Positions 5,276 to 5,636 of a stretch of 64,000 bases of DNA are shown piece by piece (the stretch's first letter is position 1; each line of letters opens with the position of its first letter). Source of the stretch: Halobacteriovorax marinus SJ. GTDB taxonomy: Bacteria > Bdellovibrionota > Bacteriovoracia > Bacteriovoracales > Bacteriovoracaceae. Location of the stretch: assembly GCF_000210915.2 (NCBI RefSeq), contig NC_016620.1, forward strand, positions 1,054,001 through 1,118,000. Reading direction: 5' to 3'. Below the pieces are notes generated by a model, which was not told the DNA's origin, made no database searches, and was given only the letters and a program-made list of their open reading frames with translations. The position numbers and the translations under genes were made by a program.

Positions 5276-5305
5276 TTGACGAAAACACGGGTCTAAAAAT
5301 AGAAT
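5276..5305 (+). promoter_or_regulatory. Sigma-70-type promoter of the histone gene
   Basis: TTGACG (5276-5281) and TAGAAT (5300-5305) are separated by 18 bases. This would start transcription about 30 bases before the ATG, with a TGAGGT ribosome site in between. Confidence 0.55.
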
Positions 5306-5341
5306 ATATCTTTAAACATTAACTTTACATGAGGTAAGAAA

Positions 5342-5596
5342 ATGGCAAAGAAAAAAGCGACTAAAAAAGCTGCAACTAAGAAGAAAGCAACAAAGACAAC
5401 TAAAGCATCTAAGAAAAAAGAAATGCTATTAGTTGGATCAAAGACTAAAGAAGCTCTTAAAGGGAAGGGATACAATGTATCTTCAGACACTCTAGAAGCT
5501 ATGAATAACTACGTTTACTGGCTTATTGAGCAAGCTCAAAAGAAGTGTACAGCTAACGGTAGAAAGACAATCAGACCTTACGATATCTTAGCGTAA
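5342..5596 (+). CDS. Bacterial histone-fold protein with a lysine-rich N-terminal tail
   Basis: The 84-residue product has two parts. Residues 2-26 are Lys, Ala and Thr almost only (KKKATKKAATKKKATK and similar), like the tails of histone H1 and chlamydial Hc proteins. Residues 28-84 read as one histone fold: helix 1 (SKTKEALKGKGYN), loop VSSD, long helix 2 (TLEAMNNYVYWLIEQAQKK), loop and short helix 3 in ANGRKTIRPYDILA. The last segment matches archaeal histone HMfB (HAGRKTIKAEDIELA), including the Arg-Thr pair (R74, T76) and the Asp (D81) that salt-bridges it. Helix 3 is short, as in the known bacterial histone of Bdellovibrio (Bd0055). Expected role is DNA binding and nucleoid packing. It has its own promoter and terminator, which suggests high independent expression. 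Confidence 0.85.
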   Translation: MAKKKATKKAATKKKATKTTKASKKKEMLLVGSKTKEALKGKGYNVSSDTLEAMNNYVYWLIEQAQKKCTANGRKTIRPYDILA

Positions 5597-5606
5597 TTTC
5601 AATACA

Positions 5607-5636
5607 TTATGGGGAGTCTTTCTCCCCATAAATTTT
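5607..5636 (+). terminator. Intrinsic terminator of the histone gene
   Basis: Perfect 10-bp stem TTATGGGGAG (5607-5616) / CTCCCCATAA (5622-5631) with loop TCTTT, followed by ATTTTATAT. Confidence 0.85.

Follow-up and report, generated by a model that had tools for sequence, protein, structure and literature searches.

The histone fold is a helix-loop-helix-loop-helix arrangement. As described in excerpts of one paper (PMC11390915), FtF histones are defined by a torus-shaped homotetramer with R48 and N52 of the profile at its dyad, bacterial dimer histones are without both of these residues, and the class Bacteriovoracia has bacterial FtF histones. The same excerpts state that tails are common in bacterial FtF histones, mostly positive, and not conserved in sequence, and according to an excerpt of a second paper (PMC10627809), long tails are absent from most bacterial singlets. 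HLp, the solved bacterial FtF histone found in this analysis, has a short disordered arm only. In the excerpts available of PMC12701072, the tetramer network of HLp is formed by R49, S52, N53, R55, T61 and F63, and its DNA contacts are made by A13, S14, K15, K17, K21, T27, G29, T56 and T57.

Here, we have analysed a stretch of 64,000 nucleotides (the window; contig NC_016620.1, positions 1,054,001 to 1,118,000 of the forward strand) of Halobacteriovorax marinus SJ, whose genome has 3,437,906 bases in two contigs, and describe a histone gene with the following features.

5276..5305, plus strand: sigma-70-like promoter TTGACG-18-TAGAAT (single scan match, and pattern kept in congeners)
5331..5335, plus strand: Shine-Dalgarno GAGGT before ATG5342 (sequence)
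5342..5596, plus strand: coding sequence with stop, tailed FtF-type histone of 84 aa (ORF and translation)
5342..5422, plus strand: N-terminal tail, residues 1-27, MAKKKATKKAATKKKATKTTKASKKKE, predicted disordered (pLDDT and congener lengths)
5423..5593, plus strand: predicted histone fold, residues 28-84, MLLVGSKTKEALKGKGYNVSSDTLEAMNNYVYWLIEQAQKKCTANGRKTIRPYDILA (sequence, predicted structure and structural comparison)
5607..5631, plus strand: intrinsic terminator hairpin, 10-bp stem followed by a T-rich stretch (scan and congener hairpins)

The gene, its start, promoter and terminator, the fold and family signature, and the disorder and charge of the tail are computed results. The 84-residue open reading frame at 5342-5596 of the plus strand, noted earlier from the letters of this DNA, is borne out by the ORF and its translation; the tail that the earlier note placed before the fold is also present, but is 27 residues long and not 25. 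That the gene has its own promoter and terminator, as further claimed, is supported by conservation and not by the scans alone. The pattern TTGAC[GT]-18 bp-TA[AG]AAT is found upstream of the gene in 5/5 genus-level genomes (read by eye, own genome counted), and a strong hairpin whose sequence differs between genomes lies 3' of the stop, again in 5/5 with our own genome counted. The promoter scan was not above chance (4 sites vs 6.9 ± 2.7 in shuffles), nor was the terminator scan alone (1 vs 0.9 in shuffles). In the core codons of the 5 congeners, 15-28 silent vs 1-5 replacing differences were counted per pair. The histone gene is solitary, with a divergent small ORF upstream and, past the hairpin, a chemotaxis receptor-like gene (by eye) downstream; a functional operon was rejected, since no neighbour gene points to chromatin. 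At least two neighbour genes of the window are kept at 5 of the 80 named loci (L044, L049, L051, L056, L064), a count that is a lower bound because several loci are short. The Leptospira histone neighbourhood includes SMC (excerpt of PMC12701072); for a neighbourhood of this type, the scope was the first 14 kb of the window.

For residues 28-84, a histone fold of three helices is predicted. An AlphaFold2 monomer model, built from 68 aligned sequences (the window protein plus 67 relatives), has pLDDT of at least 90 at 51 residues and contains helices at 32-40, 48-71 and 79-82. The pLDDT block means are 51, 45 and 71 for residues 1-10, 11-20 and 21-30, with values below 50 at residues 13-22. As the model has no strand, the helix-strand-helix-strand-helix wording of the earlier note was wrong, while the comparison it proposed, of residues 28-84 with HMfB and Bd0055 (HBb), did yield a histone fold. 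Chain 9qt1 of the HLp-DNA structure superimposes on the model at 0.8 Å over 57 residues (Z 9.0), HBb (8fvx) at 1.2 Å (Z 8.8) and the archaeal FtF histone HTkC (9f2c) at 1.0 Å (Z 8.2); HMfB is farther off at 1.6 Å (Z 6.5). HLp and HBb are therefore tied by structure, being within 1 Z unit. In a sequence search of solved chains, the E-values were 1.5e-9 for HLp, 1.6e-4 for HBb and 0.015 for HTkC. HBb trails HLp by about five orders of magnitude, so that sequence separates what the Z score ties. The likeness to Bd0055 drawn in the earlier note thus holds for the fold, but by sequence HLp is the closest solved relative. That fold and lysine-rich tail occur in one 84-residue chain is supported by both sequence and model. 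Alpha-synuclein matches (E 0.1 to 2.4) were taken as chance. In Pfam, the protein had matches only below the curated cut-offs, the DUF1931 match scored 14.1 bits vs a cut-off of 21.8, and NCBIfam gave unrelated models only, far below their cut-offs.

Matches at E 0.01 or better were found in 40 of 59 genomes, our own included, with ZZ-like and other histone types among them. From the scan of named genomes, the best 80 loci of 85 were used, and 77 rows of the window plus these 80 loci were scored. The rows left out were L120, which missed the core pattern only and is tailed and FtF-like by eye, and L066, L096 and L118, which have no clear start; starts of the relatives were picked by a simple Shine-Dalgarno score, L097 and L121 being without a scored site. 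The alignment holds 68 of the 77 rows, near-identical ones having been left out. We grouped the rows by their C-terminus, a grouping of our own, into A (41 rows, with the window gene), B (25) and O (11). Group B ends one residue past the Asp (..DF) and has short, near-neutral arms, of fewer than 14 residues in 24/25. In a fold-only tree of 57 columns, with good support at 17/71 inner branches and a bootstrap that had not yet settled, B and O each make up one side of a supported branch and A takes 2 changes. Judging from the record names, at least nine assemblies carry both an A gene and a B gene. These paralogue pairs of FtF histones are L045/L095, L046/L086, L047/L087, L048/L106, L050/L092, L058/L088, L072/L094, L081/L111 and L082/L100, and the tail is variable in their group A members.

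Searches of our own genome returned the group A gene and a Cys-rich (ZZ-like) histone at C1:922371, and no others; the ZZ label follows the description in excerpts of PMC11390915 and not a profile match. This Cys-rich histone-fold protein has 152 aa (L002:1267-1725), and its gene adjoins a ribosome-biogenesis GTPase-like gene (by eye). A Bd0055-type gene was sought with HBb as query, which gave the ZZ-like histone (1.1e-13), the window gene (1.9e-4) and, by chance, a stretch interrupted by stops (0.64); no separate HBb type was thus found in this genome. Three HU/IHF-family genes over the cut-off are present, so this histone is not necessarily the chief packaging protein. In the literature searched, we found no joint report of Halobacteriovorax marinus and a histone, and PMC11390915, seen as excerpts, was the only relevant match on tailed histones in Bacteriovoracia. 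The histones aligned in an excerpt of PMC12701072 include a 'Hymenobacter marinus' protein, ATH09486, which we suspect could be a Halobacteriovorax marinus histone.

To compare the window protein with HLp, residues of the latter were mapped by an ungapped offset of 19. The tetramer network maps to K68, A71, N72, R74, Y80 and I82, of which two are identical, one is a conservative replacement (K for R) and three differ. The DNA contacts map to G32, S33, K34, K36, K40, V46, S48, K75 and T76, where identity extends to the Ser, three Lys and one Thr, and the four corresponding to A13, T27, G29 and T56 differ. Across the 68 aligned sequences, S33, K34 and T76 do not vary, and K36, K40 and M28 are nearly invariant; the RxTxxxxD motif (R74, T76, D81) is invariant too, in agreement with the earlier reading that the Arg-Thr pair and Asp of archaeal histones are kept. 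The dyad Asn (N52 of the profile, N53 of HLp) corresponds to N72 and is kept in 77/77 rows. Its partner, the dyad Arg (R48 of the profile, R49 of HLp), is conservatively replaced by K68, and is basic in 77/77 rows (R in 55, K in 22). Rows of the K68 type occur in group A only (22/41, vs 0/25 in B and 0/11 in O), and the tree needs 3 changes to account for them. The window protein ends two residues (L83, A84) past the position of F63, the last residue of HLp and part of its tetramer network. This C-terminal extension was considered as the cause of K68 and rejected as a simple rule, since 11/11 group O rows keep Arg though each continues beyond the residue that follows the Asp.

The protein has a single histone fold with a short helix 3 (79-82), as FtF histones do, and their conserved helix-1 lysines are represented by the invariant K34 and the nearly invariant K36 and K40. 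On sequence and predicted structure, it is filed as an FtF-type histone, for which a tetramer would be expected. The protein lacks the marks of other classes: the HBb-type dimer class is marked by the lack of dyad residues, and here N72 is present and K68 is basic; a ZZ histone has a zinc-binding ZZ domain at its N-terminus, and residues 1-27 hold no Cys or His; a DUF1931 pseudodimer joins two histone folds in its chain, and this chain of 84 aa has one; and helix 3 of the eukaryotic-type nucleosomal histone has several turns, while here it spans just 79-82. The earlier note had set this tailed form against tailless known ones. The tail is real, but tails have been reported in bacterial FtF histones before (excerpts of PMC11390915), so the gene is a well-supported new example and not a new kind of protein.

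We argue that the protein is probably a nucleoid FtF histone, whose tetramer wraps DNA and whose H1-like tails bind flanking or neighbouring DNA. In this mechanism, of which we infer the tetramer, the wrapping, the abundance and the role of the tail, two chains would pair through the histone handshake, and two such dimers would dock face to face, using the end of helix 2 together with loop 2 and helix 3 (K68, N72, R74), and so form a torus-shaped tetramer. DNA could then wrap the rim of the tetramer by contacts with S33, K34, K36, K40, K75 and T76, over a length that would be ∼60 bp going by HLp. The four disordered Lys/Ala/Thr tails, with a net charge of +12 each, would protrude and contact entering, leaving or neighbouring DNA with no sequence preference. 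Like the lysine-rich tails of H1, they may raise the affinity and compact or bridge the particles.

K68 and the longer C-terminus make an HBb-like dimer the main rival. The protein would then be a tailed dimer that bends DNA as HBb does, the altered dyad no longer closing the tetramer and the tail adding affinity. That Lys at position 68 is confined to group A, in 22 of its 41 rows, is consistent with such a change, as are the near-equal fits of HBb and HLp to the model by Z. The replacements in the tetramer network (K68 for R49 of HLp, and A71, Y80 and I82 where HLp has S52, T61 and F63) weigh against the mechanism proposed above, as do the four DNA contacts that are not identical. We consider this dimer unlikely, however. 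The dyad Asn is found in every one of the 77 rows, while bacterial dimers are described as lacking R48 and N52 (PMC11390915, excerpts); Lys is able to replace Arg in a salt bridge; and the E-value of HLp is better by some five orders of magnitude.

The 27 residues of the tail include 13 Lys and carry a net charge of +12. Among the 5 congeners, tail length varies from 22 to 27 residues, and the changes are in frame. Taking a long tail as at least 14 residues before the fold, long tails are found in 30/77 rows, with a composition of 45% K, 24% A and 10% T and a net charge of +4 to +20; the arms of the other 47/77 have a net charge of -2 to +3. On the best tree, 12 changes separate long from short forms; counting well-supported branches alone, at least 7 remain, compared with a mean of 24 when shuffled. 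With the cut placed at 18 residues, the numbers are 11 on the best tree and 8 on well-supported branches. The tail is real but labile, and its lability favours bulk charge over a read-out of particular residues.

This bears on the suggestion that the tail is mainly a regulatory platform, on which acetylation or methylation of the lysines would adjust DNA binding, as happens on the histone tails of eukaryotes. So many lysines in a short segment that is predicted to be disordered, and a ZZ-like histone in the same genome, would suit such a role; binding of tails by ZZ domains was raised and then doubted in excerpts of PMC11390915. Yet neither length nor sequence of the tail is conserved even within the 5 congeners, and at least seven gains or losses of long tails fit bulk charge better than read sites, which makes regulation quite improbable as the main role.

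The Shine-Dalgarno sequence GAGGT lies 7-11 bases 5' of ATG5342, and the genus-level relatives L003-L006 likewise have a GAGG/GGAG-type site ahead of the equivalent start. Initiation at M28 would produce the would-be tailless form. That the tail is an annotation artefact and a tailless singlet is translated from M28 is most improbable: although the ATG of M28 is nearly invariant, the shorter of two HLp database forms was judged right (excerpt of PMC12701072), a 4-5 base Shine-Dalgarno match by the simple score precedes the M28 position in, for example, L050, L059, L065, L067, L073 and L074, and L066 has no alternative start, in this genome the Shine-Dalgarno site serves ATG5342 with none before the in-frame ATG of M28, tail indels in congeners keep the frame, codons 1-15 of the tail show 2-4 silent and 0-4 replacing differences per pair of the 5 congeners, and M28 lies within the fold and is internal in short-armed relatives too.

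Similar tails are found on other proteins. Searched by protein similarity in our own genome, the tail matched the histone itself and nothing else, which we assume is because of low-complexity filtering, and a DNA pattern was used instead. MAKKK(A/T) occurs at 4 sites in this genome (0 in the reversed control). Three of them look like true starts followed by K/A-rich tails, namely those of the histone, a SWIB protein and a 356-aa protein, and the fourth sits within a longer open frame. Across 16 genomes, our own included, there are 27 sites in 10 genomes (1 in the reversed control), and at 17 of the 27 the first 25 residues are at least 80% K, R, A, T, V, P and S. The tailed SWIB-domain protein (L125:840-1517, minus strand; G000 C1:2077421, minus strand) has 226 aa, with an N-terminal tail of ∼145 residues made of KKATKKVAKKATKK-like repeats and SWIB at residues 154-225 (E 2.8e-28). 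SWIB was matched in 14/16 genomes, and in 13 of the 14 a K/A/T-rich stretch precedes SWIB within the open frame of one copy; the G010 frame, as read, lacks an ATG ahead of the stretch, which in G038 measures just ∼30 residues. A published tailed SWIB protein was not among the matches listed, and the excerpts of work on Waddlia SWIB (PMC6426960) mention no such tail. The 356-aa protein (L126:450-1517, minus strand; G000 C1:2769121, minus strand) combines an H1-like tail with a C-terminal Cys/His stretch, CLEKNCDNPVTTLGYCRYHY; it had no Pfam match over a cut-off, and proteins like it were seen by eye in G001-G004, G008 and G009. H1-like tails are thus a recurring theme in this group, with the histone as one of the carriers.

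Several other observations concern SWIB and H1-like sequences. A tailless SWIB/MDM2-domain protein is encoded at 1680-2009 of the window (E 2.6e-15), 3.3 kb upstream of the histone; this short tailless form occurs in 6 other of the 16 genomes, at ∼10 kb or less from the histone in G001, G003 and G004 and on another contig in G002, G008 and G010. Stand-alone H1-like ORFs that are nearly all K, A, T and V were found at L144 (G010, 129 residues) and L148 (G041, 31 residues), G010 being a genome with a short-armed group A histone. L147 (G002 C13:86510) is a 404-aa ORF with a K/A tail before a domain that has a fumarase-like end (by eye).

It is possible, though we hold it only tentatively and think it doubtful, that a transferable H1-like tail is a shared compaction module of chromatin in these bacteria. 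The histone might then assemble on DNA together with the tailed SWIB protein and the third carrier, and the histone tail could be freely gained and lost, with other tailed proteins supplying it. If true, this would be a modular bacterial chromatin of core plus linker tail that evolved apart from eukaryotes. The shared start letters of the tails could also reflect convergence of simple repeats.

Of the known systems, HLp of Leptospira perolatii (PDB: 9QT0, 9QT1, 9QT2) has the same fold length, short helix 3 and RD clamp (R74/D81 here), shares the dyad Asn and the helix-1 Ser/Lys DNA contacts, and fits the model at 0.8 Å. HLp differs in being 63 aa long with ∼7 disordered first residues, where the window protein has a K-rich tail of 27, in having R49 in place of K68, and in ending two residues earlier at the C-terminus. 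Two Leptospira species are without HU (excerpt of PMC12701072), whereas our genome has three HU/IHF-family genes. The tailed FtF histones of Bacteriovoracia described in PMC11390915 belong to the same bacterial class and family and have the same positive type of tail; tail switching, paralogue groups and tails on other proteins do not appear in the excerpts of that paper. HBb (Bd0055) of Bdellovibrio bacteriovorus (PDB: 8FVX, 8CMP, 9EZZ, 9F0E) shares the single fold, the RKT motif and the S-K motif at the start of helix 1, and is 36% identical to the window protein over ∼56 residues, but it lacks the FtF dyad residues (excerpts of PMC11390915) and a long tail in its solved chains. HTkC of Thermococcus kodakarensis (PDB: 9F2C) belongs to the FtF tetramer family, shares the dyad Asn position and fits at 1.0 Å, but is archaeal, with a 59-residue chain that has no long tail, and matches at E 0.015. 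The H1-like proteins Hc2 (Chlamydia) and AlgP (Pseudomonas) have Lys/Ala-rich stretches like the tail described here and are not known to have a histone fold. The size of Hc2 varies with the number of its lysine-rich repeats (excerpt of PMC2848022). This long-tailed histone and the very similar histones of close relatives that lack the tail, such as the short-armed L045 (88-89% identical), provide a clean pair for asking how a bacterial histone profits from a lysine tail, and they open the question of the repeated origin of such tails outside eukaryotes and Asgard archaea.
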